NCBI GenBank assembly: GCA_014871385.1
Contig: CM026421.1
Span: 12,103,128-12,167,127, forward strand
Reading direction: 5' to 3'
Source: Ceratodon purpureus
Lineage: Eukaryota > Streptophyta > Bryopsida > Pseudoditrichales > Ditrichaceae
DNA: 64,000 nt
Shown: piece after piece, positions 38,572 through 64,000 of the stretch
Layout: every line of letters starts with the position of its first letter
Numbering within the stretch: the first letter of the stretch is position 1
Position numbers and translations under genes: made by a program
The notes under the pieces: model-generated
Seen by the model: the letters and a program-made list of their open reading frames with translations, nothing else
Database searches by the model: none
Told to the model about the DNA's origin: nothing

Positions 38572-38843
38572 GGGGAAAGTTCGTACGTGAGCGGAGAGCG
38601 TAGAGCGGAGAGCGGTGAGCGCAGAATGGAGAGCACAGATTTGACAATTATGAAAATTTTCAAAAGCAAAGTAGACCCTATAACCGTGGAAAATTACTAA
38701 ATTAAGGCTTAATTTTGACACTTTTTTTAGGTGAAGAGTATATTACCGTGGAAATCAGGGTTAGCTCTGGTAAGAATTTTTTACGTTTGTTCTCTAAGAT
38801 AAAAATTAGGGCTGATGTCATGATGACGTCATGCATACATTCC
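38572..38843. repeat. left terminal region of element A
   Basis: Matches 53464-53745 over about 270 bp: ggggaaagtt, then a GAGCGGAGAGC-type tandem repeat, 'gatttgaca', 'aaccctataaccgtgga'-like sequence and 'gatgtcatgatgacgtcat'. The same block lies left of both methyltransferase genes, so it marks an element end or a shared 3' region. Confidence 0.7.
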
Positions 38844-39742
38844 ATGAGATTTGTCATGGGTTTAGGCAATATACAATGATCAGGCGTTAAGTTTTAGATT
38901 AAACAAATAATTCTTTCATAGGGTTATGTAAATGCACAAGGAAAAAAACAACTTTCACAGAACATGAAGGAGGCAAGGTTTGAAAACTTCCTAGAATATT
39001 TCAAAATTTGTGTATAATATCTTAACTGCTGAAACCAAGATATACCTTGTTAGAGTCCTTGTCTTCATCGAAGATTACTCTGTCTACCTAGGCAGCGAAG
39101 CATCTTCATTTCAGTGATACAAGTAGGAGATTTTCATCATCAAACAGCACTTGGTAAGCTGGGTTCCAGAGAAGGAGGTCACTCTTGGTTTCTATAGCTT
39201 GTTCTTAGGTGGCGTATTAGGATAGTGACACAGTCCTTGGCATTCTGTGGTGTATTCGAAGGTAGCGATGGAGTTCGGGGGGGTCAATCCGTAGGCTTAC
39301 GTGGAACGTTTTAAGACTACAACAACTTACTGTGTTGCGCGATGCCGAAGGTGTGTAATGCAAGATCGAGGAGGACGAGAGCGGCTGTAGGTTTGCCCCC
39401 AAAAGCACCGGCGAGTTATGAGGAGCTGCGGCCGTGGCTGTTGGAGGTGGAGCGCGCCAGAGATCGAGGCATGGACCTGCCACCGTTTAGGCACATCGGA
39501 AGCCTCCATGTTGGTGAAGGTGAATGGCGTTGGACAGTGCTTTGTACGAATGAGCTTCTCCGTATTATGGAGCTGTCTCTAATCCCGTATCCCTTGCTAT
39601 CGAACGTCGATGAGAATCCACTTGTTCAGCTGCCCGAAGTGATCATATCGGATGGCGAAACTTGCTGGTTTGATATGGACAAGAGTTGGACTGTATATCC
39701 TCCGAAGGATTAGTACTGTGAAGTCTAGTGGGGTGTTTGGAG
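38844..39742. mobile_element. 899-bp insertion in element A flanked by ACATTCC direct repeats
   Basis: Element B reads continuously from 'gacgtcatccattcaatcc' to 'tttagatttggtccc'. In A the equivalent sequence is split by 899 bp, with ACATTCC at 38837-38843 and again at 39743-39749, as expected for a target-site duplication. No clear inverted repeats or poly-A tail at its ends. It carries the ORF at 39342-39713. Confidence 0.65.
39342..39713 (+). CDS. hypothetical 123-residue protein inside an insertion
   Basis: An ATG-started frame of 123 residues with good compositional balance. It begins with a basic N-terminus (MPKVCNARSRRTRAAVG) followed by SYEELRPWLLEVERARDRG and a W/F-containing C-terminal half ending in WTVYPPKD. 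I do not recognise a family. It lies wholly inside the 899-bp insertion that is absent from element B, so it travelled with that insertion and may be a captured gene fragment or the insertion's own small gene. Whether it is expressed is unknown. Confidence 0.4.
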   Translation: MPKVCNARSRRTRAAVGLPPKAPASYEELRPWLLEVERARDRGMDLPPFRHIGSLHVGEGEWRWTVLCTNELLRIMELSLIPYPLLSNVDENPLVQLPEVIISDGETCWFDMDKSWTVYPPKD

Positions 39743-40221
39743 ACATTCCTTTAGATTTGGTCCCTTACTGGATCTAGATACGAGTATTCCAGCATAATGG
39801 CTTAGATAATATAGACAATTCTAGGAATAAGACAAGTCGAAACAAGCTTCCGAAATGGTCTTAAAAGTTAGTGGAATATTTCAGAGTTCGTGTATAGTAA
39901 TGGAGTGGCAGAAACCAAGATGTACACCAAGTCAAGAATAGGTAACATGGCTATGGAAATGTGGGATTTTGAATGATTAAATTATAAATTACAGCGCAAT
40001 ATTAATTTTGAGCATTTCTTTTGTAACATTTCATTATTCATAAGACAGCTCTTCGAAGACTTGCAATTTTAGACCTTTACATACACGAGTATAAACTGAA
40101 CACGAGAATCATAAATTTTTTAGTGGTTTGCAATAGAGTAGACGATGCAGTATGTAATGAACTCCACTGAAATCAAATCAAATCAAATGGAAACAATGAT
40201 AGAGCGAGGCCTCTTTCAAAC

Positions 40222-43200
40222 TTAGAAGATGCTACAGTCGCTACTTCCACTCTCAGAACCCGATGACTCAGACTCTCCTTCTACAGCCTCTTCATCGACA
40301 AAAAGAAGGGCCCTGGGATCGAAATTAGTGGGCCGACTAGGAACATATCTAAGTGCACCACATTGAAGCGCTTGTGCTAAGTCCTCTGCATAGTCCGGAA
40401 GAATAAAAGGCTGAACCGGGCTGGAATTAAGACGCCAAGATGGAGGGAACACGGCTCTATGCCCACTTGGCGGTGTTGTCACAACTACTCTGCAATAGAA
40501 AGCCAGAAGTGGTTAGATCGAATAAGTAAATTTGCGTACAGAAATAATACTGGATGCATTGCACGAAACATACAAATTCTAGAGTAAGACTTACAATACT
40601 TAGTGGGTCTTTGTTTCTTTGCTGGTGCTTCCTCTGCTGCTGCCGGTCTAGGATGTTTAGGGGGGCCCATGGGAGATTTTGCTGCCATATACGGTTTGAG
40701 AAGGGCGTTGAATATGGCTTCGTCATCCTCAAAAGCTATAATATGACGACCAATAGCCTGGCAAGCCTTGACAGAGGCCCCTGCAACTCAAAGCAAGGTG
40801 AAGACGTGAGAAACTGAGGAAGGAATGAGAGAAATAATTCTGTAGAGACATGTAAGAACGGTTACCTGTTCCTGCCTTCCAGTCCAGGACTATGTCGCCG
40901 GGCTTCGAGAGCTCTCCAATTATGCTCTGCATCATCCCAGGGGATTTTTCCCTTGGCCCTCTCCATGGAACATCCCCATTCATTTGCTGAGAATCAACGT
41001 CGATAAAGTTGAAAATCGCATCACTCTCGGTAATGTTGAGGTCGCCATGTATGACATCGGATTTCTTCGTTTGAAAGGAGAACTTAGATGGAGGCTCGCC
41101 ACCACGAACGAAGACCCGGATCCAGAACCGATTAGTCTGCAATCAACCAAATTATGTCAGAATGAATAAACGGAAGGGATAGTACGAAGTAAACTGAAGG
41201 AAAGGAAAGGATGAAATTACCAGGTTTCCGGGGTTCGTAGGAGAAGTCAGGCCGAGCTCATTGAAGCCCCACCAGTCTTTGTAAAGGACAAACTTAGTGG
41301 CGCTAGCTTCTTCGAGAATTTCCGTAGCCAACGCTTGATCATTGTTGTAGATGATGCACAGAGCGCCATCATTTTGCAAGTAAAGACTTGCGAAATAGAA
41401 AATGTCGTACACATAATCCTTTTCACGGGAGTTCCAAGGAGGAATCACGGTAGGAGGATAGGAAACGAGAGGGACAGGAAGATTCTCAGGGATGTCAACG
41501 ATGATCAAGTCGACTCCCAGATGATTCTCAACCTGGCACCGCTCAGGAACTTCGTTCTGGCGGCCACGTCCAAACTGGAGAAACAATGCTATAGGGTTAG
41601 ACTGTATGAAATTAATTGAAGTGTATGTAATATCGAATTATGTAAGAAGAGAATCATACCTTGCGCACGAAGTCTAGAGTTTTCACCCAATCCGGATGGC
41701 CACCCTTGTCTTTGAGCTCTATGTTACGAACCAGTAACGGGGTCACGGATGAGTTGATGATAGAAACACCAGTGGAATGGAGAGTTCCTGCGGAGGAGGT
41801 GCTTGCCGGGAGAAGTCTGGCCTTCCTTTGTTCCAGAAGACCTCTGGTGATAGCGGATGCACTGACCGATGAAGGCGCAGGAGTAGGGGACGGATTGGGA
41901 ACGACAATCACAGGAGATGGAATGGCAGCGCCCTTCTCCGGTGCGGAGGACTCTGCACCAGTCTCCTGAGAGCCCTGGGACGTAGCACCCAGCTTTCGCA
42001 GTCGCCGCCCCCGCCCTTTCTTCGGTGGAGGTGCAGATGATTGATCCTGGAGGCCTTCGGCCTCATCAGAACCGTCTCCAGAGTCGTCGATGGCTATTGA
42101 TCCCGCGTCAAGCTCAGCTTTGAGCTCCGCTTCAGAATCAACAACGAAACCTCGAATGCAATCGAGGTACCAACAACCAGCGGCTAGGTGCGGAGAGCTG
42201 AACCTCTTCAGCTGCAGAGGAGTATAGATACACTGATCAGAGCCTCTCTGAATCCACGAGGCGAAGTATGAAGGGAACTTCTCAGGATCAATTGCACCTT
42301 TTGGAAGCAGCTCTCTGTTGAAGTACCTAATGAAAATCAAGTGCCATATTGATCAGAATCATAGTATTGACAGTAAATAAAAGCGAAAAAGAAAAAAAGA
42401 TAAAAATTCGAAGTGCATAAAAGTCATACCGGTATGTCACACGCTTAACAACATCTGCTGCTCCCGGATAAGTGGAAAAATCAGACTTCTTATCAAAAGG
42501 CTTTTCTGCGCGGGTACTTATAAATGCGGGGAAAGCCTTTTCCCAAAGGAGAATACGCCAACTCTCCACATATGCGTCTGGCCGCAACAGTCCCGGGAAG
42601 GACTTCCACTTGATGACAAGGTTCTCGGTCTTGCAGATGTCATCAAACTCCCGGGTAACAGCATCCTCTATCTGCGATTGAAAGGTAAAGTCATCGACAT
42701 AAATATTGACATGGGACAAAGAAGAAGTAGTATCTGTAATTATTTCGAAGTATGAAAGTACTGTACCCCAGCCCAGAATGTTGCCTTGCTCAACCAAGGG
42801 TCAAAGTCGGCCTCCTTAAAGTCCTGGGGCAGAAATCTGTAAGATTGTCGTGCACTTGCTGAAGAGTTCCACCACCTCAGCCAACGCGCCTTGAACTTTG
42901 CATCAACAGCTGCAGGAACAATCTTCTGAAGCTTCTCCACTGTCATCTCCGGCTTGGAGAAATCACTGTAATGCCGATTGATCTGGGAAGTGAACATTAC
43001 ATGAACGGGAAGGTTAGTGTTTAGATTACTTATTCAAAAGTAAAGTAGAGATGTGAAGAAACTAACCTCCGCGAGGAAGTCATCACCGTTTTTGGGATTG
43101 GCAATGGCGAGGTACTTGGTGAAGTCCTTCTTCTTAATGTAGTCGACCATGTTGGTCGAAGCGGCAGACATGGCATCCCATACACCTGCCGCCGTTTGCT

Positions 43201-44239
43201 CTGTTATGGGTGTTTTCTCCTTGTAGGCCCGGGCAGCTTCGTCAGAAGCAGCCACGATTTCTCTCTGGAAAATAAAATAATCAACTTCTGAGTATAAACA
43301 GCATGGCAATTCATGACATTTAGAAGCGTGAGGGGGGGGGGGGGGGTGGAATTGCTTACACGATAAAGAAATGTGATGAAGATTTTGGTTGGCAAAGTAA
43401 ACCATCCAGGAATTGATGGTTTGTGATTCAAACATATTTGGTACTCCGCTGGTGAGAGCAGATCCTTGAATTCCTCCAATTTCATCACACCAAAAGAGCG
43501 AATACGGAAGAGTTTTGCAGGAAGATTACTCTTCACGTAATCATTCTCTGTAGACCTGCTCGAAGATATGGTAGTTAGTTAAAGCCGTGTAGTGAAAGTT
43601 CAAGCAGCTTTCAAGAATTGAGGACAAGAAGTAGGGAAAAAATGCTTACCAGTTGATGTCGTGCATGGCATGAAGAAGGTTTCCCACACGACCGCGTGGG
43701 TCAAGAACAATGCAATGCACGGAGATGTGCCAAGCTGGATCATCATAGTGATGGTTGTTGATATGTCTGTACCATGCGGCAAGGCGATGGTTACCTTCCC
43801 AGACATAGAACATCTTCCCGGAGAACTCCTTCCAGTCCGGATCGGCCAAGAGCTCATCCTCGAAAGCATCGTTGACTTTCTGCCAACAAGGGCTCCAGTC
43901 AGCCTTGATCTCCTCAGTGACATCGGCGGTCTTCTCTTCGTGGTTGTACATGGAAATGTACATGACACGGTCTCCATCTCTATATCCATTGACAAACTCT
44001 CGCTCCAAATGTTGAACTCCCATTTCTCCTACAGGTCGCACTCTTGCCATTGACTGCATCCTGCAGAGGGGTACGAGGATACGGGACTTCGTCTTTGGGA
44101 GTATTCGGAGGTCGTTGATGACGGTTGTAGAGTCCAATTTGAATTGTTTTCTGTGTTCCAATTCACTGTCCACTGCATTCGTCAATTCAATCGGACAAGA
44201 TGGCGCTGGCAACTGATCCTGTGTTTGTGTTTGAGTTAC
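40222..44239 (-). CDS. ParB-like domain plus amino-type DNA methyltransferase, element A
   Basis: Ten exons: 43650-44239, 43360-43555, 43067-43264, 42767-42982, 42430-42671, 41660-42326, 41221-41574, 40866-41136, 40595-40780, 40222-40487. They sum to 3186 nt (1061 residues), all in frame. Residues 60-190 resemble the ParB/sulfiredoxin fold: RVRPVGEMGVQHLEREF, then a strand-rich stretch, then VWEGNHRLAAW (148-152 is EGNHR). Residues 200-480 are not recognised. 481-703 is low-complexity with PPPKKGRGRR, a likely nuclear signal. 704-970 is a permuted methyltransferase: LIIVDIPENLP where motif IV (DPPY) is expected, GALCIIYNND, then PWRGPREKSPGMM, KPGDIVLDWKAGTG (motif I) and KACQAIGRHIIAFEDDEA, the order found in beta-class N4C/N6A DNA methyltransferases. 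The DPPY motif is degenerate, so activity is uncertain. The first exon starts at an acceptor site with no conserved Met, so the true start lies upstream or at an internal Met (MQSMARVRP). Confidence 0.8.
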
Positions 44240-44379
44240 CTGTCAAACGTCATACTTATTTAGAGTTGATTCAAAGATAATGAACGTAAGCAAATCAAAA
44301 ACAATAATGTAGAATATAAGAATTACTTCGCAGACTGGTACATCTCAGACTGCAGCAGAAATAAGTAGAGCTTAGGCCA

Positions 44380-47300
44380 CTATGTGCGTCGTGCACGACT
44401 ATAGTACTCCCTAGCCTGTCTACAGTTCCAGTGACGGCGCCTCTTCCAAAATCGCCTAGTCTGCTGGACAGGGCATGGCAGTATCGCCGGGAGGGCGAAG
44501 ACAACATGGGCTGGCCTCCTCACTCTAATAGGCGAGGATGGAGAAGGTGGAGACATAGGCGGGGTCCCAAGTCTTGGAGAGGTAGGCATGTAGCCCGGGG
44601 ATGTAGGCTCATAGACAGGAGACGTAGGCATGTACTGAGGAGAGTGGACCTCGAGAGGTCCACTACCTAAACCTACAGGGCTGCCCAAATCACATCTACA
44701 TAAATAAGGCTGATCAAAAGAATCCGAGAGGTCGGAGACATTGATGACTGAGATTGGCGAACTGATGGACAAGGGTGCATCTGAGAATACCTAGAGAAAT
44801 AGAACAAAGACAATGTCAGATTCCCAACTAAGCTTTCAAATGAAAATTAGAAAGGACTATGGAGGTTAAATATACTATGCTATTCTTAATTGAGAAGACA
44901 AATTCCAACAACTTACCTCAGTTTCAGCTGGAGTTGGGCCATCAAAGTCACTTGCAGTGAATTGCTCTGTGACCTCCTACAATACAAAGGGAAAACAAAT
45001 AATCAGAAATCATTAGAAAACACCAAACAACAAGAAGAAAGCAACAGTTGACATTTAAACATATTCATTCCCCAGATATAATTCTTATTGTTTTTAAAAT
45101 TAGCCTCCTTCTCCCCCTCCTCCTCCCCCACATCCTCCCCCTCCTCCAGGGGGGGTGTCGGCTCCGAATGCGCCTTGGCGGAGGCACCTCCCCCCGGGTC
45201 AGGGGCCTCCCACTCTTCCTCTGTGGCTGCAAGCATGAGCACGAGGGCCGCGGCCATGGCCTCCGCATTGAGCCCCTGCATAGCACTGCTTGCCGCCCCC
45301 GCAATCACCCCCTCCTCCAGGGGGGGTGTCGGCTCCGAATGCGCCTTGGCGGAGGCACCTCCCCCCGGGTCAGGGGCCTCCCACTCTTCATCTGTGGCTG
45401 CAAGCATGAGCAGAAGGGCCGCGGCATTGGCCTCCGCATTGAGCCCCTGCATAGCACTGCTTGCCGCCCCCGCAATCACCCCCTCCTCCAGGGGGGGTGT
45501 CGGCTCCGAATGCGCCTTGGCGGAGGCACCTCCCCCCGGGTCAGGGGCCTCCCACTCTTCGTCTGTGGCTGCAAGCATGAGCAGCAGGGCCGCGGCATTG
45601 GCCTCCGCATTGAGCCCCTGCATAGCACTGCTTGCCGCCCCCGCAATCACCCCCTCCTCCAGGGGGGGTGTCGGCTCCGAATGCGCCTTGGCGGAGGCAC
45701 CTCCCCCCGGGTCAGGGGCCTCCCACTCTTCCTCTGTGGCTGCAAGCATGAGCACGAGGGCCGCGGCCATGGCCTCCGCATTGAGCCCCTGCATAGCACT
45801 GCTTGCCGCCCCCGCAATCACCCCCTCCTCCAGGGGGGGTGTCGGCTCCGAATGCGCCTTGGCGGAGGCACCTCCCCCCGGGTCAGGGGCCTCCCACTCT
45901 TCATCTGTGGCTGCAAGCATGAGCACGAGGGCCGCGGCCATGGCCTCCGCATTGAGCCCCTGCATAGCACTGCTTGCCGCCCCCGCAATCACCCCCTCCT
46001 CCAGGGGGGGTGTCGGCTCCGAATGCGCCTTGGCGGAGGCACCTCCCCCCGGGACAGGGGCCTCCCACTCTTCCTCTGTGGCTGCAAGCATGAGCACGAG
46101 GGCCGCGGCCATGGCCTCCGCATTGAGCCCCTGCATAGCACTGCTTGCCGCCCCCGCAATCACCCCCTCCTCCAGGGGGGGTGTCGGCTCCGAATGCGCC
46201 TTGGCGGAGGCACCTCCCCCCGGGTCAGGGGCCTCCCACTCTTCCTCTGTGGCTGCAAGCATGAGCACGAGGGCCGCGGCCATGGCCTCCGCATTGAGCC
46301 CCTGCATAGCACTGCTTGCCGCCCCCGCAATCACCCCCTCCTCCAGGGGGGTGTCGCCTCCGAATGCGCCTTGGCGGAGGCACCTCCCCCCGGGTCAGGG
46401 GCCTCCCACTCTTCCTCTGTGGCTGCAAGCATGAGCACGAGGGCCGCGGCCATGGCCTCCGCATTGAGCCCCTGCATAGCACTGCTTGCCGCCCCCGCAA
46501 TCACCCCCTCCTCCAGGGGGGGTGTCGACTCCGAATGCGCCTTGGCGGAGGCACCTCCCCCCGGGTCAGGGGCCGCCCTCTCTTCATCTGTGGCTGCAAG
46601 CATGAGCACGAGGGCCGCGGCCATGGCCTCCGCATTGAGCCCCTGCATAGGACTGCTTGCCGCCCCCGCAATCACCCCCTCCTCCAGGGGGGGTGTCGGC
46701 TCCGAATGCGCCTTGGCGGAGGCACCTCCCCCCGGGTCAGGGGCCTCCCACTCTTCATCTGTGGCTGCAAGCATGAGCACGAGGGCCGCGGCCATGGCCT
46801 CCGCATTGAGCCCCTGCATAGCACTGCTTGCCGCCCCCGCAATCACCCCCTCCTCCATGGGGGGTGTCGGCTCCGAATGCGCCTTGGCGGAGGCACCTCC
46901 CCCCGGGTCAGGGGCCGCCCTCTCTTCATCTGTGGCTGCAAGCATGAGCACGAGGGCCGCGGCCATGGCCTCCGCATTGAGCCCCTGCATAGCACTGCTT
47001 GCCGCCCCCGCAATCACCCCCTCCTCCCAGGGGGGTGTCGGCTCCGAATGCGCCTTGGCGGAGGCACCTCCCCCCGGGTCAGGGGCCTCCCACTCTTCAT
47101 CTGTGGCTGCAAGCATGAGCACGAGGGCCGCGGCATTGGCCTCCGCATTGAGCCCCTGCATAGCACTGCTTGCCGCCCCCGCAATCACCCCCTCCTCTAG
47201 CTCAATCTCGCCCTCTCTCAATGCTTTCAAAAGAGTCAGGCCCCAATTCGTCTCTCACTCATGACCCACAAACAGAACCCCAACAAATCTAAACACCCAC

Positions 47301-48468
47301 AAATCATAAAAACCCAAAACCCGAACTTCGATCCTCACCTCCTCGGTGGCAGGGCCGCGGTCTGACCTGCCATCCTCACTCGCAGTGACCTCCTCCAGAC
47401 GCTCCTCTCCATGCTCATCTCCTCGGTCCGCCATCTCCTTACCTGTGCCCTGCTCTACCGTGGCCGCGGGTGCTTCTTCCGATGGGGCTTGCAAAGAGGC
47501 CTTCCCTCTCCCACCTCGACCCTTACCCCTCCCTCGACCCCTCACCTCCGACTTTCGACCTCTCCCTCGGGCCGACCCCTCATCCATGTCCACTTCTGGA
47601 CCTGGACTTCCCGCAATGTCAAGCGAATGATCATCCTCCCCACTAGTTTCAGTAGGACTTCCAGGGTGCCCTCGCCCCGCTCGTGTAGCAGCAAGTAGTT
47701 CCCCACCTTCGCCCGCCTCCATAATTTGGCGTCTCGCTCTCCTAGCGACTTTTCTCAAGGTCTCATGATCTGACTCCTCGCCCGTACCCACTTCTGGCGT
47801 CTTCTCCTCTTCAACGTCTTGCTCAATCCTAAACAAGTCGCCAATCTGCGCAAATGTTTAGGACTATGATGAAATTTACTACTCCACTTTTATTTTGAAC
47901 AACCGTTCAGATTCATGCAGCTTCACTATTCTAAACAGTAAAACAACGAACTCGCAGCAAAGACATTACTTCAAACGGACTATAATTTACATTTAATATC
48001 TTTTTATTGATGGATTCTGAAACTTACCACATCTATATTACCATGGTCGCCCGACTGAGAACCCGTCCCTTCAGTCGAACACTCCTTGAATCCGAAAGAT
48101 GGTTGCGGTGTCTCCAAAGTCGGACTACAATTCAATCCTAGCTCTTCCGTCATCTCCAGATGTTTCTCTCCGCTACTTATTACTTCATGCTCCTCATGCT
48201 CAACTGCGATATCCTCTAAAACCTCATCTTCCGCCTCTACTATGGACTCTAGAATGAGTTTACGGATGCTACAAAATTTAATTGCCACAGGCAGCCCAGC
48301 TCCTCGAACCTTCAGAGGTGCACTCAAGAGGTTGCCTTTCGACTTTGACTTCCTACTTAATTCTCTCCTCTTCCTCGATCTCCTGTTAGTAAAATCTGTA
48401 CCACCTGGTTTTCTTCTACGCCTAGGAGTGACAAAAGTGGAGGGAGCTGACCCTCCACTCTCCTTCAT
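44380..48468 (-). CDS. basic/heptad-repeat protein module, element A
   Basis: Supported exons: 48028-48468, 47339-47845, 44917-44976, 44380-44790, all phase 0. The 171-bp repeats (45121-47210) lie between exons 2 and 3 and may add a long repeat exon. Exon 1 is basic ([20 protein letters not shown]) with a conserved [20 protein letters not shown]. Exon 2 is acidic and G/R-rich. The last exon has three Y-x-P-T-S-P-x heptads, then [24 protein letters not shown] and a stop after CRQAREYYSRARRT. The start is the first ATG shared with element B (HMKESGG/HMKQSGG); a longer open frame to the right begins with GTG and was not used. This is either a separate protein ending at 44380 or the 5' part of the methyltransferase transcript: exon 3 (ending ETE) and the ParB exon (VTQTQ) are both phase 0, so skipping the heptad exon would fuse them. 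I recognise no enzyme domain. Confidence 0.55.
45121..47210. repeat. GC-rich 171-bp minisatellite, 12 copies
   Basis: Twelve head-to-tail copies of 171 bp (anchor ctcctccagg at 45141, 45312, 45483 and so on). On the minus strand each codes for 57 residues, beginning EEGVIAGAASSAMQGLNAEA and ending in HSEPTPPL. The frame is open through the array except for a one-base deletion near 46348 (six G instead of seven), which splits it into two overlapping frames. Copies differ at few sites (T/D before EEEW, A/V, M/N). The long plus-strand frames over it are mirror effects of a 57-codon period. Confidence 0.9.
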
Positions 48469-49265
48469 ATGTCTAACTAACGAGAGAAGTCTCCTCACAA
48501 TATAGCTCTCCTCCTAACTTCCCTCTAACTTATGTATCCCAAACCTGCAACCCCCCTGACTCAGCCCTAAATACTTTCCATATTCTAAACCTACTTGAAT
48601 TAATGAAAACTAAAAACAAATTGCAACTTGAATTAAAGCTGATGAGATCAATCTATATTTGAAGAGAATAAACCAAGCCCACATAATATTAAAAGATTTG
48701 AATTAAGCACAGGAATACTTGTATTAAATATGGATGCAAGTGACGGCTCACTCTAATCTCACTCACAGTCTATCTGTCCAGCACTTTATTATGAATATTG
48801 AGGAACTCTAACACTAAAAAAAATATAGAATTTGAATAAATCATATGCTTGCATTAGTCCTATAAATATAAAACTAATGCATGAATTTGATTTATTCAAA
48901 TTCTATATATTTATTGTTTTAAATGCAGAAAGAGTAGACGGCTCTTTTTAATCCAATCAAACCCCATAAAATATAGAATCTGCTCCACCATTCAAATACG
49001 CGAAGCAATATTCTAAAAATCTTCCTACATATTTATGGGCCTGCAAAAAGCAACATTATAATTAGTTAGCGCCGTCTCTCTTTAATCATTCATTCGTTAC
49101 GTAGCAGAATGAATCATTACCTAGTCGTCCACATGGACATTCCAATTTGAATAAAATGATCAACAGCGATGCATCATTCCTCTCACTCCGCTCTCGCGAT
49201 ACTGCTTTGCTACTACACTCACTCTTCTTCCTTCTTCCTCTAGTACATTTGTGTTGCCTGCGAAT
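48469..49265. promoter_or_regulatory. divergent promoter region of element A
   Basis: About 800 bp between two genes pointing away from each other; in element B the same interval is about 600 bp (62757-63355). AT-rich, with a hairpin-forming inverted repeat at 48824-48909. It probably holds both promoters and 5' UTRs. I do not assign individual TATA boxes. Confidence 0.5.
48824..48909. repeat. inverted repeat, about 35-bp arms
   Basis: The left arm (48824-48857, starting tatagaatttgaataaatca) is nearly the reverse complement of the right arm (48874-48909), with a 16-base loop. It could be a MITE remnant or a hairpin in the divergent promoter. The equivalent interval of element B does not obviously contain it. 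Confidence 0.75.
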
Positions 49266-52944: not shown

Positions 52945-53463
52945 GTAGCCCTCCTACTTTAGAACTGCCATTTCCACGATGGCCATTTGTCACGTAGTGA
53001 ATGATTTTAGTAATATACCATGTACTAAGTCAGCTATTCAGAAGCTGTATTGACTTTTTCATTATATTAAAGGCTTTGTCGTTCACATTGATTGCATTCT
53101 ATTTCAATACATTCTATCTTGAAGAAGTGCACTATATACCTCGTATCCTCTGACATGTACCCTTTATTACAGCAAACATATACTTGTTATTAGATGTCCT
53201 AATCTTCGAACCTAACACGTTTAGGGTTGCCCACTACACTATCAGCAGGGCTCCGAACCTCTGACTGTACTACAGGACAAACTACATTCGCATTCACTTT
53301 CGTTCCCACACTTGGAGCGTGTCCTTGGTATGATCGTTTCAGCAATGGCCCACCTCCCCGCCTCCGATTCACTGATTCCCTGGAATAGGTTCCCCTTGGG
53401 ATCTTTCCAACCCTGGAGTATGCATGAGTTTGCAAAGGCACATCTGCGTCCTCCTCCAGCACT
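52945..53463. other. 3' flank of transposase A up to element B
   Basis: Transposase 3' UTR followed by sequence with a minus-strand frame (53199-53462) that lacks an ATG start and has no recognised domain. The right end of element A must lie in or near this stretch, but no inverted copy of the left end is visible. Confidence 0.4.
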
Positions 53464-53745
53464 GGGGAAAGTTAGCATGTGAGCGGAGAGCGGAGAGCGG
53501 AGAGCAGAGAGCAGAGAATGGAGAGCAGAGATTTGACATTTAGCCAAATATTTTAAAGCAAAGTAAACCCTATAACCGTGGAAAAAAACTAAAAAAAGGT
53601 ATGGTTTTTTTACTATTTTTAGTAAAGGAGCGTATTCCCGTGGAATTCAGGGTTATGTCTGGTAAAAATTTTTTTACGTTTTATTTTTTTGGTACAAATT
53701 AGGGCTGATGTCATGATGACGTCATCCATTCAATCCTTTAGATTT
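53464..53745. repeat. left terminal region of element B
   Basis: Counterpart of 38572-38843, with the same ggggaaagtt start and a longer run of GAGCGGAGAGC-type repeats (53480-53530). The conserved 'tgatgtcatgatgacgtcat' includes an inverted TGATGTCA/TGACGTCA-like core similar to a bZIP binding site. Confidence 0.65.
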
Positions 53746-54135
53746 GGTCCCTCATTGGATCTACATAGGAGTATTCCAGCATCATCTTCTTAGATCACAG
53801 CATTAAATATGTAATAGAAAAGTAAAGGAAAAAAAAAATCACAAAAGGTAAAGTTTATGGTCTGAAACCTTAAACTTTATGGTCTGAAAGCTAAAGTTTA
53901 TGGTCTGAAACACTAAATTTTGAGCATTTATTTTATAACATTTCACTCTTCGTGTTATATTTTGAGCTTCACAGTTGGCGTTTCATCCTTTACATACCCC
54001 GAGACGAATTGGAAATGAGAAACATAACTACTTTAAGATGTTTGGAGTAGAGTAGACGAAGGAATAGGCAATGAACTCCAATTCAATCAAATCAAATCAA
54101 ATGCAAACAATGAAAGACCGAAGCCTCGTTCAAAC

Positions 54136-57100
54136 TCACAATACACTAGAATCACTACTTCCACCCTCAGAACTAGATGACTCGGAATCTCCTTCTACCG
54201 CCTCGTCATCGACGAATATCAGAGCTCTAGGATCGAAAGTAGTTGGCCGACTAGGAACATATGTGAGGGCTCCAGATTGAAACGCCTGTGCTAAGTCCTC
54301 CGCGTACTCCGGAAGTATAAAAGGCTGTATCGGGCTGGAATGAAGACGCCACGATGGAGTGGACACTGATGTTGGCCCACGTGGCGGTGTTGCCGAAACT
54401 ACTCTGCAATAGAAAACCGATTGTGGTTAGATTGAATACGTAGAGGTGCAAAGAGAAGAAATGCTTGGAGAATTTGAACAAAGAATAGAAGACTTACACC
54501 ACTTATCAGGTCTTCTTGCTCTCTTTGGAGGCGCTTCGTCTGCTGCTGCCGGCCTAGGATGTTTAGGAGGGCCCATGGCAGATGACGTAGCCATATACGG
54601 TTTGAGAAGGGCGTTGAAGATGGCTTCGTCCTCCTCACAAGCTATAATATGACGACCAATACTCTGGCAAGCCTTGAGGGAGGCACCTGAAAACACGTAG
54701 CATAGATAAGTAGTGAGTTCCTGTGGAGAAAATCAGAGGATTGGAAATGCAGAAACTGTTATTGGAGGATTACCTGTTCCCGCCGACCACTCGAAGACTA
54801 TGTCACCGGGCTTGGTCATCTCCTCAATGATGCCCTGCATCATCTCAGGGGCTTTCTCCCTCGGGCCTCTCCACGGCACCTCTCCATTCATGAGCTGCGA
54901 GTTTAGCTGGGTGAAGTTAAGAATGGCATCACTCTCGGTAATGTGGAGGTCGTTGTGAACGACATCGGATTTCTTCGTTTGAAATGAAAACTTGGATGGG
55001 GGGGTACCACCACGAATGAAGACGCGCACCCAGAATCGAAGAGACTGCGAGAAACAACAATGTGTAAGTGCAATTAAGAGGATAACTTAGTAGAATTCAA
55101 AGACAAGCAAAGATTATGATGTACATACCAAGGAGCCGGGCATCGTTGGGTGAGCCAAGCCTAGTCCATTGAAGCCCCACCAGTCTCGGTGCTGCACGAA
55201 GCCATCCTCAGCAGCAACTTCGGAAATCTTCGAAGCGAGACGTTGGTCGTTGTTGTGGATGATGCAGAGAGCACCATCAAACTGCAAGAAATGTCTTGCG
55301 AATTCGAAGAGGTCATCCAAATAATCCTTGCCGCGTTTGTTCCAAGGCGGAGGGACGTAGGCGGGATTGGATATGGTGGGGACCGGAAGATTCTCAGGAA
55401 TGTCGGCAATGATCAAGTCGAATCCCAAGTGATTCTCCAGTTGGCATCTCTCAGGAACTCGGCTGTCGCGGCCTCCTCCAAACTTGAATAAACAAGAAAT
55501 CAGAGTTTAAAAATATAAGGATTACAGAATATCAGAATTGAAGGGAAAGAATGAAACAACGAATCATACCATTCGAATGATGTCTAGAGCCTTGTTCCAT
55601 TCGGGATCGCCACCAATGTCTTCAAGTTCCTTGTGTCGGGATAGAACCGAAGGCACAGAGGAGTTGATGACATAAACCTGAGAGGAATTGAGAGTTCCAG
55701 CCGAAGAGGTACTCTGTGGGAATTTCTTGGTTTTCCTCTGCTCGAGGAGACTTCTGGTGACCTCGGAAGCACTGATCGAGGAAGGAGCCGGCGAAGAAGC
55801 TGGAGAAGGCTTCGTAACGACAATACCTGGAGACGGCTCTGGTGCCTTCTCAGCTGGCGCGGAAGACTCTGCGCCAGTTTGCTGTGATGCCTCTGAGTGA
55901 GAACGCAGAGATTTCAGTCGCCTTCCTCTCCCTTTCTTTGGTGGAGGAGCAGAAGATTGATCCTCTTGACCTTCGTCTTCGTCTGCACCATCCAAGGAGG
56001 CTTCGACCCCCACCTCACCCCCATCATGTAGCATCTTGACGTCCGCCTCCGAGTCAATAGTGAAACCACCAATACAATCAAGATACCAGCATCCAGCATC
56101 CAGGTGAGCAGCTTTATACCTTTTTATCTGCTTCGGAGAGTACATACACTGGTCCGAGGTTGTCTGCGTCCAAAGCTTGAAGTACATGGGAAGCTGCTGG
56201 AGCGTGATAGCCCCCTTCAAAACAAGCTCTCGCTTGAAGTACCTATGAGAAGACTTAAAGAAGGTAAGTATAAGAAACAATTACAATGAAAATTATGAAA
56301 TGGAAATGCGATTAAGTATGGTAACCTACCGGTAAATAACCCGCTTGACAACTTCAGCGGTTCCAGGGAATTTTGCGAAGTTGGACTTCTTGTCGAAGTG
56401 CTTCTCAGCCTTTTTTCCAATGAACGTAGGGAAGGCCTTGTCCCACAAGAGAATACGTGAACTCTCGACATAATCGCCGGGCTGTTGGACATCAGGAAAT
56501 GCCATCCAATTTATATCGAGGTTCTCCGACTTGAATATGTCCTCGACTTCGTGGATGACGGCTTCCTCCAACTGTAATACAAAATTGGTATAAGTAGCAA
56601 CGAAGAAGGAATACGGTGCAAAAATAAAGGAACAACGAATTGGAAAGGATTTTTTATGAAAATTACCCCAGCCCAGAATGAAGCTTTGTTCAACCATGGG
56701 TCGAATTCGGTGTCTTTAAATTCAGATGGCAGAAATCTGTAAGACGATCGAGAATTTGGGGATGAATTCCACCACTTCAACCAACGAGCCTTGTATTTGG
56801 CCTCAACGGCCGCTGGAACAACCTTCTGAAGCTTATCGATTGACATCTCAGGCTTATTGTTGAGACTGTAATGGCGATTGATCTGCAAGAAGCACCGAAG
56901 TTTTAAAAAGATAAGTACAGAAATTTTTAAATTCATAAGAAACATTCAATTGAACAACGATCAGTGAGTCACCTCATTGAGGAAGTCGTCACCATTCTTG
57001 GGATTTGCGACAGCCAAGTACTTGGTGAAGTCTTTCTTCTTGATGGCTTCGACCATTCTCTCTGATGCCTCATTCATGACATCCCAAACTGCACTTGCAG

Positions 57101-58121
57101 ACTGCTCATCCACGGGTGTCTTCCTGCGGTAGGCATCGGCTGCCTCATCGGAGGCCGCAGCGAGTTCCCGCTGTAGAAATATAATTTAGCCTTAGGAAAG
57201 TCCATGAGAATTCAATAATAAGAATGAAATTCAGAGTGGAGGTAGGACTTACTCGATATAGAAATGCGATGAAAATTTTAGTTGTCAAGGGAAACCAGGA
57301 GGGATTAGGTGGCTTGTTCTTCAAACATACGTCATACTCTTGAGGACTGAGGAGGTCTTTAAATTCCTCCAGCTTCATCATTCCGAAAGAGCGGATTCGA
57401 AATAGTTTTGCCGGGAGATTACTCTTCACGTGGTCATTCTCAGTCGACCTGAAAATAAATCAAAATAAGTATGATGAATAATAGAGATGAAATAAATGTA
57501 CAAATGGAAAAACAGGAAAAAAGAAACAAGTACTTACCAGTTGATGTCATGCATTGCGTGAAGAAGATTGCCAACATGGCCACGGGGATCGAGTACTATG
57601 CAGTGCACAGAGATGTGCCAAGACGGGTCGTCTGCATGATGCTTGTTGATATGACGAAGCCATGCTGAGAGGCGATGGTTACCTTCCCAGACAAAGAACA
57701 TCTTCCCCGAGAATTGCGACCAGTCCTCGTCACTTTGAAGCTCAGATTCAAATGCATCATTCGCGTGCCTCCATAATGGGCTCCATCTAGCCATGACCTC
57801 ATCTGTAACATCTCTTGTCTGCTCTTCGTGGTTGTACATAGAGATGTACATGACGCGGTCGCCATCTCTGTACCCCTTAACGAACTCCCGCTCCAAATGC
57901 TGTACCCCCACTTCGCCCACTGGTCTAACCTTTGCCATTGGGATCATCCTGCACAGGGGCACTGACATTCGAGACTTCTGAGATGGCTTGAACCTGAGCT
58001 TGTTGATGACGGCGTTGGAGTCCACTTTGTATAGGGATTGATGTTCCAATTCCCCTTCCGTAGCAGTCTTCAAGTTTATCGGACAAGATGGTTTTACTAA
58101 CACATCTTGTGTTTGCGTAAC
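54136..58121 (-). CDS. ParB-like domain plus amino-type DNA methyltransferase, element B
   Basis: Ten exons: 57538-58121, 57253-57448, 56973-57170, 56667-56882, 56330-56571, 55570-56242, 55129-55482, 54774-55044, 54498-54686, 54136-54401. They sum to 3189 nt (1062 residues), with the same phases as element A and no stop or frameshift. Exon lengths are the same or differ by multiples of three. Key parts are kept: KVRPVGEVGVQHLEREF and VWEGNHRLSAW (ParB-like); LIIADIPENLPV at the motif IV position; GALCIIHNNDQ; PWRGPREKAPEMM; KPGDIVFEWSAGTG (motif I) and KACQSIGRHIIACEEDEA. The most variable parts are the linker (KKGRGRRLKSL region) and the extreme ends. Retention of both methyltransferase motif regions, including the unusual DIPE, in two diverged copies argues that DIPE is the family's real motif. 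As in A, the first exon needs an upstream start or an internal Met. Confidence 0.8.
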
Positions 58122-58266
58122 CTGCGAGAAGGTGCGCAAATTAGGAGAACAAGCACAATCAAAGAAAGGTATTCAAAGTAGACAAGTGTGTAAAAGAAAG
58201 TAACAATATATCTTCATACTGTCATCTCTCTTTTAACAACTCAATCATCATCTGTGATTGATAAAA

Positions 58267-61200
58267 CTATCTACGTGAGGATCGACTATAGTACTCCTTA
58301 GACTGTCTACAGTTCCAGTGACGGCGCCTCCTCCAAAAGCGCCTGGTCTGTTGGACAGGGCACGGCAGAATAGCCGGCAGAGCGAAGACGACATGGGCTG
58401 GCCTCCTGACTCTAATCGGCGAGGAAGGAGAGGGTGGAGACATCGGCGGAGAGCCCTGTGGAGGAGACGTAGGCATATAGCCCGGGGAGGTTGGCTCATA
58501 CACAGGGGATGTAGGCATGTACACTGGAGATGTAGGCATGTACACTGGCGAGGTAGGCATGTACTGAGGAGAGTGGACCTCGAGAGGTCCACTTTCCACA
58601 CCTACAGGGTTGGCTACATCACAGGTACAGTAGTGCTGATCAAATGAATCCGAAAGATCGGAAACATTGATCACAGAAATGGGGGAAGTGGCGGACATCT
58701 CAGGAGCATCGGAAGATACCTAGAGTAGAAGAAATGAAGTGAGGATTAACTTAAATTTTTAAGGCGAAAAGAACTGGAACTCATAAGCAGAAGAGAACAA
58801 TATAAATTGAAAATTGAATGAAATACCTCTGTTTCTGCTGGCGTCGGGTCTTGAGGTTCGCTCCCCAGATGATCTCCATCAGAATCCTAAGCAATGTGAT
58901 AATTAATTGAAAATATAGCAATTATGAAGAATCAAATAACAATGTCAACACGACTCCCAAAGAACTTTAAAAACATATAAAAAGTCCTAAAATCATAAGC
59001 ACGAAAAACTCCAAAAAACCCACCAAATTACATGGTTTTTTTCACATAAATTCAGATTTTCAATCAGAGTTTGAGAACATAATCCCATGCACATAACACA
59101 CAATGTCGAATAAAAATCAAGATAAAAAAATTAAAAACAAAATCCCCAAATGAAGGCTTGTACTCCCGGCCTACTGTCGTTGACGACAGTAGGTTCGGGA
59201 GTTTTTTAATTTTTTAAAATGTCCAAAAATTCACGAAATTACGTATTTTCCTTCAAATTAATTAAGATTTCCAATTAGAGATTTAGCCATAATCCCATGC
59301 ACATAACACACAATATCCAATAAAAATCAAAATAAAAAAAATAAATAACAAAATCCCCAAATGAAGGCTTGTACTCCCGGCCTACTGTCGTTGACGACAG
59401 TAGGTTCGGGAGTTTTTTAATTTTTTAAAATGTCCAAAAATTCACGAAATTACGTATTTTCCTTCAAATTAATTAAGATTTCCAATTAGAGATTTAGCCA
59501 TAATCCCATGCTCATAACACAAAATATCGAATAAAAATCAAAATAAAAAAAAAAAAAAAACAAAATCCCCAAATGAAGGCTTGTACTCCCGGCCTACTGT
59601 CGTTGACGACAGTAGGTTCGGAGTTTTTTAATTTTTTAAAAAATCCAAAAATAACCATCAAAATACGTAAAAACATTCACAGAAATTCATATTTGCATTA
59701 AGACGATTTGAGCATACAATCATTCCATAACACATAATGTCGAAGATAAAACATAATAAAAAAACAAAATACAAAATCCCCAAAATCAGCCTGGTACTCC
59801 CGACCTACTGTCGTTGACGACAGTGGGTTTGGAGTTTTTTATTTTTCCAATAAATCCAAAAAAACCATAAGAATAGGTGTGAGTCTTCACTAAAATTCAA
59901 AATTAATTAAGACTTTGAGACAATATACGTATGTACAGAACACATATTGCCAATAATATACGAAAAAAAACAAATTCATGAAAATCCCCAAAATGACCCC
60001 TGTACTCTCGGCCTACTGTCGTTGACGACAGTAGGTTTGAGGTTTTTATATGTTTTAAGAATTCCCAAAAAACCACGAAATTACATGTTTTTTTTCACAA
60101 ACATTTTGATTTCCAATAAGAGTTTTAGCCATAAATCCAAGGAGATAACACACAATATCGAGTAAAAATCAAAATTAAAGAATTAAAAAAAAAATCCCAA
60201 AATACGTGCTTGTACTCCCGGCCTACTGTCGTTGACGACAGTAGGTTCGGGAGTTTTTTAATTTTTTTAAAAATCCAAAAAATCACAAAATTCAGTTTTT
60301 CTCTTCAAATTAATTCAGGTTTCTAATAGGAGTTCTAGCCATAAATCCATGGAGATAACACACAATATCGCATAAAAATCAAAATTAAAAAATTAAAAAA
60401 AAAAATCCCCAAATACGGGCTTGTACTCCCGGCCTACTGTCGTTGACGACAGTAGGTTTGGGAGTTTTTTAATTTTTTAAAAAATCCATAAATTCACAAA
60501 ATACAGTTTTACTCTTCAAATTAATTCAGATGTCTAATAAGAGTTTAAGCCATAAATCCATGGAGATAACACACGATATCGAATAAAAATCAAAATAAAA
60601 AAATTTAAAAAAAAAAATCCCCAAATACGGGCTTGTACTCCCGGCCTACTGTCGTTGACGACAGTAGGTTCGGGAGTTTTTTAATTTTTTAAAAAATCCA
60701 TAAATTCACAAAATACAGTTTTACTCTTCAAATTAATTCAGATGTCTAATAAGAGTTTAAGCCATAAATCCATGGAGATAACACACGATATCGAATAAAA
60801 ATCAAAATAAAAAAATTAAAAAAAAAAAATCCCCAAATACTGGCTTGTACTCCCGGCCTACTGTCGTTGACGACAGTAGGTTCGGAGTTTTTTTATTTTT
60901 TAAAATATCCAAAAAATTCATTCTCGGGTTTTTATAATTTTTTAAATTTAAAAAAAAACCAAATAAATTACACCTACTTTATCAAATATATGCAAATTTA
61001 TAATAATATTTGGTGACCATTATTCATTTATATGAGGCTGCAACGAATGCACCAAAGTCTCGAGGCAGGATCTCTGGCCATGCTTGAATGTCCCAAGAGC
61101 AAGCGATCCGGCAAGCAAAGCAGCAGCCCGGCAGTTCATCAGACCAGGAAGTTCATAACAACCACCAATCCACTAACCCGGACAATCGGCAACCAGTCAC

Positions 61201-62756
61201 AATTGCCCACTACTCACAATCCGCAAACAAGCAAGGGGTATCGGAACTCACACACATTGGAAACCCAGCAGAGAATACTCAAGAAGAACCCAACAATAAA
61301 TCTCGAAAACATCATCAACAACAATGAGAGCCGGGCTGATGTTCCGGTATCGCTACAGGCGATGCTTATGCCAAGTTGATTACTATCTCAACTGACATGA
61401 TGCGGCCATCCACGAATCAGCAGAAGACCATCAACCCGCAACCCACAATCCCCACAACAGATCCCCAACTCGAAATCCCCAACTCCAAATCCCAAAAGCA
61501 AGTGTACATCTGCAAATCCCCAACTCGAAATTCCCAACTCGAAACCAAGCGTGCAGGCTAACAAACTCGAAATCCCACAAACCATCACACCACAAACCAC
61601 CACACCGAAACCCATTACAAGTACCCACAACCAACAGACCTCAACCCAGAACCTACAACAACAAACTCAACTCAGTCAAACTAAAGCGACCCGTACAACA
61701 AGATTGTACGGCCAGATCTCAAAACCCCAAAACCCAACCCATTCAAATAACTCATCATTGAGGAGGTCTGACCAGCTCAGACGCCGTACCTGCTCTCCGT
61801 CCTCAAGGTCCTCCTCCCCGTCGTCGCCGTCCGTACGCTCCCGGTCGTCGGTCGCCTCCCCAGCCAACCCGACCTGCTCATCACCTCCTCCTTGCTCGTC
61901 CGCGACCATGTCGCCAAGGTTCTGCCCCGCAGCCACTCCACCGACTTGTTCCTCGTCGTCTCCCCTCATCAGCTCCAACCTTGCTGCCATTGCCTCTCCC
62001 CCTTCCCCTGCTCTCAATATCTCGCACCTCGCCCTCCTTGCAATAGCCACCAAATGCTCCAGTTCGCTCCCCTCTCCTGCAAGTGAGCCTCCAGTCGAAT
62101 CTCCAAGTTCCCTTATCCTTGGGTATCTCTAAGCATAATTTCAAAATATTTACACTCGTCAGTTCTGAGGCATTCTTGTGAGATCAGAGAATCCATTGGA
62201 AATAAGCGTAATACAAAGAAAATAACGTTTATAGTAAAGCATCCTCCTAATATAATACTGAATTAATATAAACAATCAAAATCCGTCAAGACGGTAAAGA
62301 ATAACTAACCTCATCCGAGTTAAAATGTAGATTTGATTGAGAATCCGTCTCCCCCGTCAAAGAGTCATTGAACTCGATAGACGGCTGCGGTGACCCCAAT
62401 CTTTGACTACAATTAAAGACTAATTCTTCCGTCATGGCCTCACGTGCACCTCCACTTGAGAATACCCCTTGTTCTTGCTCGTGTTGTTCAACGACAGAGT
62501 TCTCTAAAAAATCTTCCTCTCGCTCTACTATTGAATCCAGAATGAGTTTACGAATGCTACAAAACTTCAAGGCTACAGGCAGTCCTGCTCCTCTCCTTTT
62601 CACGGGTGCACTCAAATGATCACTTTTAAATCCCACCTTCTTACGTGATGCTCTCCTCTTCCTAGCTCTCCTATTTGTAAAATCTGTACCACCTGCTTTT
62701 CTTCTAGGTTTAGGAGTGACATAAGTGGAGGGAGATGGCCCTCCACTCTGCTTCAT
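58267..62756 (-). CDS. basic/heptad-repeat protein module, element B
   Basis: Supported exons: 62310-62756, 61790-62128, 58827-58886, 58267-58719, all phase 0 and homologous to the four in element A. Exon 1 has the basic [20 protein letters not shown] and the conserved [20 protein letters not shown]. Exon 2 has [19 protein letters not shown], matching A. The last exon has five Y-M/E-P-T-S-P-x heptads (A has three) and ends in a stop after [14 protein letters not shown], at the same place as in A. The 211-bp palindrome satellite and about 900 bp of Q/T/N-rich low-complexity DNA lie between exons 2 and 3 and are probably intronic. Additional exons in that gap cannot be excluded. Confidence 0.55.
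59140..60900. repeat. 211-bp satellite, 9 copies, each with a 24-bp palindrome
   Basis: Nine AT-rich copies with period 208-212 bp. Each contains a palindrome of 11-base arms CCTACTGTCGT / ACGACAGTAGG around TG, at 59170, 59381, 59593, 59804, 60012, 60222, 60433, 60645 and 60857. Outer bases (ctcccgg ... ttcgggag) extend the stem, and a T-run follows. The palindrome is kept in all nine copies (one change in copy 4, 'agtggg'), while the AT-rich spacers vary. Confidence 0.92.
61020..61720. repeat. low-complexity C/A-rich stretch in element B
   Basis: C/A-rich sequence with imperfect repeats such as 'cccaactcgaaat' (61440-61560). It opens plus frames rich in Q, T, N and P and minus frames rich in G, W and V. 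No domain; I regard it as intronic or spacer DNA of the minus-strand module. Confidence 0.4.
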
Positions 62757-63355
62757 GTGTCTAAGTAACCTAATGACCTTCCTCACAATAAAGGACACCG
62801 TAGAACTTCAGCTCTGCTTATATACTCATCATTCCTAACAACTGCTGAAGAACACCTCGTATCATAATATTAATGATCACTGACATGTACCTCTAAAAAT
62901 GGTCACTGACATTGTACAACTAAAGATATATGAATTTTGAATTAAAGTTCATGTGCAAATAAATATAATTAAAATTCATCCGGAAATCAATATAATCTCC
63001 ACTTAAATAGATTTTATGACAAAGGGTCACCCATTACTGAGGCGTGGCCATGAGTCCCAGACTGAAAGGCGGCTAAAGCTAATCCTTGACATCTTGTCTT
63101 CATCAAAAAATCAAAGCACGATCTAAAGTGGTACTGACATGAGTTAATATAAGTACACTTAAATTCTCATTACGGCGCCAGGGATAACTAACTCTGTTAC
63201 TTACAATCTAACTAACTTCCGTTACTCGTGATTCAGATTCATTTCCTCAGATGCAACTACAACTGTATATAATCATTGTACTCGACCACATCAGTCTCTC
63301 ATTCCGGTGCACCTTCACTCGATTAGTGTCATATCCCTCTACTCTACGTTTCACT
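62757..63355. promoter_or_regulatory. divergent promoter region of element B
   Basis: About 600 bp between the minus-strand module and the plus-strand transposase, equivalent to 48469-49265. AT-rich with no gene inside. It should hold both promoters. Confidence 0.5.
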
Positions 63356-64000
63356 ATGGCGTACGCAGCTCCTCGGGAAGTCCACGGCACAGTCGTCCTT
63401 TATGCTCACGGGCTTGGAATCCCTCTCTCTTTTCAGACGAATGCCGATGGTCTGGCTAGCGTGTCCTCCCAGCACCTAAGTATGAGATTCACTTTTAGAG
63501 AGGATACAATCAGGGTCGAGGAGGAGATTTTTGACGAGATAACAACTGAAATCACTCACACTCTAGGTCAGTTGTCCGAGAGGGGTGAAGATGGAATTTT
63601 GTACTGGCGCTTGTATCCTGGGACATATAGAGTTTATGGACTTACAGAGTCGCAGATGCAGACGTCTACTGAGATTCTTACTTCCCGTCGTTCCTCTACT
63701 TGCACTGTTGAAACTCCGCTTCCTCGTCACGTCAAGGTCAAGGTAGAGTCTGGCGTGGATGCTACTCTTCATACTCCGGTCATCTCCCTCTCTTCAGATG
63801 AAGAAACTAGTCCTCCAATGTCGTCCCCTCCTGTCACAGAGGACGCTGCAGAGTCCAGGCCCCCAGTCCCCCCTCCAGTAAAGTGCTCCACTTCCTCTCA
63901 AATTTTAGAGTATAGTACCATCAGTATTGTCGATTCACTTCGCAAACTTGCCGAGAGACCTGGTAGTAAGAATATTCTGAAAAAACTAAACTACTCTAGA
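63356..64000 (+). CDS. MULE-like transposase, element B (N-terminal 215 codons)
   Basis: An open frame from ATG at 63356 to the window edge, homologous to residues 1 to about 200 of the transposase at 49266. It shares GIPLSFQTNADGLASVSS, EEEIFDEITTEITHTLGQ, YRVYGLTESQMQTSTEIL and GSKNILKKLNYS. It keeps the SUMO-acceptor-like VKVE and the SUMO-interaction-like VISLSSDEE. The catalytic core and SWIM finger would lie beyond the window. No stop or frameshift in the visible part. Confidence 0.8.
   Translation, partial: MAYAAPREVHGTVVLYAHGLGIPLSFQTNADGLASVSSQHLSMRFTFREDTIRVEEEIFDEITTEITHTLGQLSERGEDGILYWRLYPGTYRVYGLTESQMQTSTEILTSRRSSTCTVETPLPRHVKVKVESGVDATLHTPVISLSSDEETSPPMSSPPVTEDAAESRPPVPPPVKCSTSSQILEYSTISIVDSLRKLAERPGSKNILKKLNYSR

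Follow-up and report, generated by a model that had tools for sequence, protein, structure and literature searches.

DNA transposons that carry a gene for a ParB-like protein with a methyltransferase domain have been described in algae. In the brown alga Ectocarpus, the element Sola1-1_Ec32 holds, opposite its transposase, a gene for a protein of 1104 amino acids (aa) with ParB-like and N4C/N6A-type methyltransferase domains, and its authors suggested that proteins of this kind bind to the transposon encoding them and modify it (PMC12477816). According to the literature cited there, similar proteins are located on transposons of green and red algae (Iyer et al. 2011; Petroll et al. 2025, on Bostrychia), and red algae hold giant EnSpm elements with several accessory genes (PMC12477816). 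Here, we analyzed 64,000 bp of the moss Ceratodon purpureus (contig CM026421.1, positions 12,103,128 to 12,167,127 of the forward strand; hereafter the window, numbered from its first base), which from position 38572 onward contains two related elements, A and B, each pairing a transposase gene with a gene for a ParB-like/amino-methyltransferase protein (the partner gene). Like Sola1-1_Ec32, these are DNA transposons with a divergent ParB-like and methyltransferase gene beside the transposase; the Ectocarpus element belongs to the Sola-1 superfamily and a brown alga, whereas the present carrier resembles Mutator-like elements (MULEs) and the host is a land plant. The green and red algal cases, as cited, are likewise alike in the cargo protein but unlike in carriers and hosts. 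In the open-access literature searched, no moss or MULE case of ParB-methyltransferase cargo was found. Since Sola1-1 was published with such cargo, the idea of it is not new; new are the MULE-like carrier, the moss host, an altered motif IV and an exon that resembles a C-terminal domain (CTD).

Outside eukaryotes, phage proteins that fuse the two domain types typically have DPPY-type motifs and are intronless. Fusions of ParB-like and N6_N4 methyltransferase domains are frequent in phages (PMC12704722), and they represent the same pair of domain types as the moss partner protein, but in a prokaryotic setting. CcrM and DpnA share with the moss protein the permuted motif order and a detectable sequence similarity, and differ in having DPPY in the aligned chains where the moss has DIPE. 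We know of no ParB-like part in either of them. Fungal KDZ transposons are reported, by Iyer and colleagues in 2014, to carry TET/JBP DNA-modification-type genes. These would also be transposons with a DNA-modification-type gene, although with a transposase of another superfamily and with an oxygenase in place of a methyltransferase. Among Mutator-like elements, Hiun of Arabidopsis carries vanC, which has an anti-silencing function (PMC6446971). Hiun and the probably Mutator-like moss elements are alike in having an extra gene; the anti-silencing function is that of vanC. To our knowledge, vanC is not a methyltransferase-fold protein.

Nested mobile elements with a transposase and a partner gene

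The preliminary description of this locus, made from the letters of the window, had proposed two tandem copies of a MULE-like transposon with its own ParB-DNA methyltransferase. The features that bear on this proposal are as follows.

38572 to 53463, plus strand: left part of element A; copies elsewhere begin at 38572 and continue beyond 53463, with 1.1-1.3 kb more to the right end
38572 to 38631, plus strand: left terminal inverted repeat of A, GGGGAAAGTT and then GAGCGGA-type repeats; right limit approximate, by eye
40222 to 44239, minus strand: ParB-like/amino-methyltransferase gene of A, ten exons, 1061 aa counted from the first exon found
40866 to 41574, minus strand: methyltransferase exons 8 and 9 of A, with motif IV DIPENLP and motif I LDWKAGTG
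43650 to 44239, minus strand: the first of the ParB-like exons of A; contains the WEGNHRLAAW motif
49266 to 52944, plus strand: transposase of A, exons 49266-51344 and 51451-52944, SWIM-like CxCx(n)CxH near the C-terminus
53454 to 53463, plus strand: target duplication CTCCAGCACT of B; second copy at 68326-68335, beyond the window
53464 to 64000, plus strand: the part within the window of element B, which is nested in A and extends over 14,862 bp (53464-68325) in the genome
53464 to 53530, plus strand: terminal inverted repeat at the left end of B; its right limit is a by-eye approximation
54136 to 58121, minus strand: ParB-like/amino-methyltransferase gene of B, ten exons, 1062 aa counted from the first exon found
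63356 to 64000, plus strand: first part of the transposase of B; the whole gene (63356-65482 and 65587-67080), without a stop, runs beyond the window

The two minus-strand open reading frames of the preliminary description proved to be real genes. Each comprises ten exons (44239-40222 in A, 58121-54136 in B) with splice sites that match in the A-B alignment, both are open throughout (1061 and 1062 codons), and their proteins are 69% identical. Exons 8 and 9 denote the seventh and eighth of the ten, an upstream exon, E1, being counted as exon 1. The proposed pairing with a plus-strand transposase was also confirmed in each element: the transposase genes have two exons, encode 1190 aa in A and 1206 aa in B, and are 74% identical to each other. 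Transcription is divergent in both elements, with the partner gene on the left and the transposase on the right.

The tandem arrangement, in contrast, was not borne out. Homology between A and B begins sharply at 38572 and 53464 with GGGGAAAGTT, and copies of A elsewhere start at the same first base amid unrelated flanks, so that the left limit given previously, 38572, is indeed the left end of element A. All six A copies that reach far enough to the right pass 53463 into a common sequence that is found after B in the genome of the window. Element B is flanked by the perfect 10-bp (10/10) target duplication CTCCAGCACT, and A resumes at 68336, where 264 bases are identical to another A copy; B therefore jumped into A at 53463|53464, and the two elements are nested. 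Target duplications of 10 bp were present in all five of the ten fetched A copies for which both ends were recovered, and with B included in 6/6 insertions. By-eye comparison found imperfect terminal inverted repeats of about 55-60 bp in A and B. Element B has nine copies of GAGCGGA, of which eight are located no further than about 70 bp from one of its ends. The remainder of the right end of A was not found in the 9 kb fetched, so A probably carries one further interruption. With defined ends, inverted repeats, target duplications and dispersed copies, the gene pair is mobile.

Copies of both genes are numerous. A DNA search of the genome with the A partner gene returned 38 matches, at least 35 of them near full length at 92-100% identity, and the B partner gene returned at least 43, with at least 20 full length at 94-100% (window copy included in each case). 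Two protein searches with exon 8 each gave the best 150 of about 1,690 candidates, and the linkage count drew on 218 distinct exon-8 places, from 70 of the first 150 and all 150 of the second. Among 40 transposase matches listed at 97-100%, 29 had an exon-8 match on the expected side, on the opposite strand and within 26 kb (chance expectation 0.008 each), and a thirtieth had an exon-9 match beside it, so that at least 30/40 are linked among the matches listed. Five exon-8 places stood near transposases in another arrangement, two of them beside transposases that are also correctly partnered; at the other three (C1:16699350, C2:19293551 and C9:14391236) none was correctly placed among the matches listed. 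The partner gene thus lies inside the element ends, opposite the transposase and in many copies, as transposon cargo of the ParB-methyltransferase kind does, and the claim of a transposon family with its own ParB-like and amino-methyltransferase gene is upheld by termini, target duplications, dispersal and linkage. Beside transposases 97-99% identical to that of A, exon 8 of the partner often showed just 73-74% protein identity to A, an example being the transposase at C3:22269399-22273077 (97% DNA identity to A) with exon 8 at C3:22282225-22282575 (74%); the partner of the transposase at C6:84337316 is of the 73% type as well. The many mixed pairs in the list suggest that the two halves have been exchanged between elements.

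Both genes are under purifying selection, which is stricter for the transposase. In the A-B comparison, the partner gene had a ratio of nonsynonymous to synonymous change (w) of 0.185, and the transposase one of 0.104. When the window copy was compared with other A copies, the 8/10 with at least 20 synonymous changes gave partner values of 0.21-0.37, and the seven in which the transposase was found gave transposase values of 0.07-0.19; two very young copies had partner values of 0.58 and 1.17, on 4 and 1 synonymous changes, respectively. The methyltransferase region gave 0.29 between A and B, and exon 8 gave 0.23-0.60 in 13 comparisons. The partner gene was without stop or frameshift in three of the ten fetched A copies, and among the five complete transposases of these copies two were clean and three had a stop or 1-nt deletion.

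The partner protein and its altered motif IV

The C-terminal part of the spliced A protein matched Pfam N6_N4_Mtase with E 1.8e-7 and 31.8 bits (cut-off 26.7), and the B protein also matches. The match covers positions 160-218 of the 221 in the profile, which is the motif I part, and single exons alone reached only about E 0.1. In the PDB, a profile search found DpnA with E 5.5e-4 and a weaker match to CcrM (E 0.032). The CcrM alignment (726-937) spans the permuted order, with motif IV at residues 730-733 and motif I at 905-912 of the A protein. Seven PHROG methyltransferase-type families matched as well, with E up to 0.27. A phage tblastn search gave 97 records with partial methyltransferase matches, none of which covered 80% of the query, and 25 stretches of viral contigs fitted a pattern, with no relative among them. 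With the whole protein as query, the PDB profile search also listed two transcriptional regulators (E 0.04) at residues 471-581.

Motif IV was compared in 32 sequences, namely A and B of the window, the ten A copies and twenty places picked from 150 exon-8 matches. It read DIPE in 28, DIPQ in two, NIPE in one and NIPK in one; an aromatic residue occurred in 0/32, and none of the 32 has the pattern (D/S/N)PP(Y/F/W) of active enzymes. Known enzymes have SPPY, DPPY, NPPY, DPPY/F or DPPW at this place, and the APPA mutant of the rotifer enzyme N4CMT, in which Ser and Tyr of the motif are changed, was inactive (PMC8885841). DNA methylation by the partner proteins of A and B is therefore doubtful. 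The amino-methyltransferase identity given in the preliminary description is sustained by the profile match above cut-off, but its naming of the protein as a methylase is put in doubt by motif IV.

Other clades of the same genome differ at this motif, with DQPY or DQPF at three loci (L050, L051 and L053) and DVPE at a fourth (L052). Three of these four loci, followed upstream, were co-linear to the ParB-like exon, and the DQPY/F clade is itself multi-copy. Judging from its motif, this clade appears a better candidate for catalytic activity than the DIPE family. No transposase of the A/B type was found in the 2.5-10.5 kb around these four loci and three further ones (L054, L055 and L056), save for a weak match of E 0.14.

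The ParB label of the N-terminal part is a motif-level statement. ParB/sulfiredoxin-like folds have the motif (D/E)G(N/H/Q)HR among conserved hydrophobic residues; in the moss proteins V-W-(D/E)-G-N-H-R...A-W was present in 5/5 sequences compared, and hhalign of the moss profile to seven phage ParB proteins aligned at the ParB motif with a score of 30.6 (P 0.0013, probability 18%, 19 columns), the best of 60 column shuffles reaching 26.7; with one phage ParB the probability was 0.7%. Pfam ParB_N had no match in the proteins scanned, and a six-frame genome search for it at E 0.001 found none, with the control positive in 10/14 genomes. The ParB-like exons retrieved only ribosomal proteins in the PDB profile search (E 0.047 and 0.5), and PADLOC and PHROGs gave weak single matches only. 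In one clade there was a weak match to DndB (E 0.012, below cut-off), a family with a related DGQHR motif. The earlier ParB label is accordingly supported at the level of the short motif and not by the Pfam domain.

Upstream exons and other features of the window

Upstream of the ParB-like exons, both elements contain further minus-strand exons and a tandem array at the same place.

38980 to 40080, no strand: 1,101-bp segment, in the window copy and 2/10 fetched copies, missing from the other 8
44380 to 44790, minus strand: exon E1 of A, three YxPTSP units; terminal stop shared with 10/10 fetched copies
45137 to 47197, no strand: 171-bp tandem array of A; length differs among copies
47339 to 47845, minus strand: tentative exon Y of A, by eye; phase 0 at either end
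48028 to 48468, minus strand: exon X of A, basic, starts MKESGG; limits by eye
58267 to 58719, minus strand: exon E1 of B, five YxPTSP units
59041 to 60920, no strand: 211-bp AT-rich tandem array of B; position matches the 171-bp array of A
62310 to 62756, minus strand: exon X of B; limits by eye

The YxPTSP heptads of E1 resemble the C-terminal domain tail of RNA polymerase II. The E1 exons of A and B share 85% identity (w 0.118), and one of the ten fetched A copies has an internal stop in E1. Conservation extends to all or part of exons X, Y and E1. We considered E1 as a direct first exon of the ParB-like gene and rejected this, as no fitting conserved donor was seen by eye near its end and its stop is fixed in 10/10 copies. 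The splice phases, read by eye, would permit X/Y to join either E1 or the first ParB-like exon; a third product from X, Y and E1, or alternative splicing, is therefore possible.

The internal tandem arrays are GC-rich in A and AT-rich in B, and blastn of the two units found no similarity between them. The 1,101-bp segment has no evident target duplication and holds a short open reading frame (39315-39713). Just to the left of element A, at about 34237-38382, lies a different plus-strand gene with a SWIM-like CxCx(n)CxH pattern; it is unrelated to the transposase of the elements and was rejected as a member of the pairing, since blastp between the regions gave only short chance-level matches (E 0.003 or worse). 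Rfam and tRNA searches of the window gave no matches.

Probable carrier class and a proposed role of the partner protein

Duplications of 8-11 bp are typical of Mutator-like elements, and a SWIM zinc finger after the catalytic region is common, though not universal, in MULE transposases. The present elements have 10-bp duplications in all six insertions, terminal inverted repeats, a SWIM-like CxCx(n)CxH in both transposases and a D...D...CxxH pattern seen by eye, so the carrier is most likely a Mutator-like element. The earlier term MULE is thus kept in the weaker form MULE-like, since duplication length, inverted repeats and the SWIM-like motif speak for it but no Pfam model reached its cut-off.

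For these nested MULE-like elements, we propose that the transposase would move the element and that the partner protein would be an accessory factor binding the element's own DNA, perhaps at the GAGCGGA repeats of both ends. It might keep copies competent for transposition, by counteracting silencing by the host or by assisting in the assembly of the ends. As motif IV is DIPE and not DPPY/F/W, a non-catalytic use of the fold, in binding of S-adenosylmethionine (SAM) or DNA or in pairing with another protein, is judged likelier than deposition of N6-methyladenine (6mA) or N4-methylcytosine (4mC). We give this proposal as a whole an even chance. Several points weigh against it. The end repeats could serve the transposase alone, and the accessory role, whether in binding, methylation or an effect on transposition, is deduced from sequence features. 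The family retains AGTG in motif I as well as the first aspartate and the last proline in motif IV, which leaves room for residual or altered catalysis. Neither transposase matched the Pfam models MULE or Transposase_mut at E 10. Ten of the 40 listed transposases had no correctly placed partner among the matches listed; as the partner matches are the best 150 of about 1,690, these ten are not thereby shown to lack one. In seven of the ten fetched A copies the partner gene is disrupted by a stop or 1-nt deletion, at places that differ among the copies. In a search of 19 kb per copy in direct orientation, the transposase was not found in three of the ten, one of which (C9_14.2) has an inverted right-end piece with the last part of a transposase; in another copy more than half of the transposase was lost, and in one more it is cut by the stretch end.

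Other explanations were weighed on the same evidence. That two host genes were merely duplicated locally in tandem would agree with two related units adjoining each other, but the precise insertion of B into A with its target duplication, the resumption of A behind it and the dispersal of copies over many contigs rule this out for practical purposes. It is also improbable, though much less so, that the carrier belongs to another DDE superfamily with similar target duplications: the missing MULE and Transposase_mut matches, with SWIM at only E 0.041 in B (below cut-off) and none in A, would fit this, and Zisupton/KDZ-type elements have complex transposases too, but duplications within the Mutator-like range in 6/6 insertions, the inverted repeats, the SWIM-like motif and the D...D...CxxH pattern argue for a MULE-like carrier. 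That the partner began as a host gene, was captured a single time and is now carried along passively without serving the element would be in line with the tendency of Mutator-like elements to pick up host gene fragments (PMC6446971) and with the decay of 7/10 fetched copies. We regard it as very unlikely given the w values of the partner gene both between A and B and within the family, its conserved exon structure, its linkage to at least 30/40 listed transposases, and the presence in the genome of several diverged clades, two or more of which are multi-copy.

The accessory, probably non-catalytic role has its closest rival in an active amino-methyltransferase that puts 6mA or 4mC on the element. 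Such activity has been proposed for the Ectocarpus protein (PMC12477816), and the purifying selection on the methyltransferase region, the retained AGTG of motif I and the aromatic residue of the sister clades (DQPY/DQPF) are all consistent with it. However, DIPE in 28/32 sequences with an aromatic residue in none, the aromatic ends of the motifs listed for known enzymes and the inactivity of the enzyme changed at Ser and Tyr (PMC8885841) make it somewhat unlikely for A and B. A more far-reaching combination, which we put forward tentatively and consider rather unlikely, is that the family would have converted a DNA methyltransferase of bacterial type into a non-methylating, ParB-like DNA-binder with a SAM fold, which would defend the element from silencing together with a YxPTSP product that imitates the RNA polymerase II tail, while the DQPY/F clades would still be catalytic.

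With these findings, ParB-methyltransferases on transposons, reported from algae, are also seen in a land plant and on a MULE-like carrier. The family has clean ends, more than 200 exon-8 places (218 distinct ones were used) and young copies of which some are intact, and its host is probably a model moss amenable to culture. These properties allow a direct test of whether transposons put bacterial-type methyltransferase proteins to use on their own DNA, and of whether such use is catalytic; the DIPE, DVPE and DQPY/F versions, all present in the one genome, offer a natural series for it. If the combination of a non-methylating DNA-binder and still catalytic DQPY/F clades is true, the same transposon cargo would exist both as enzyme and as pseudo-enzyme within a single moss.

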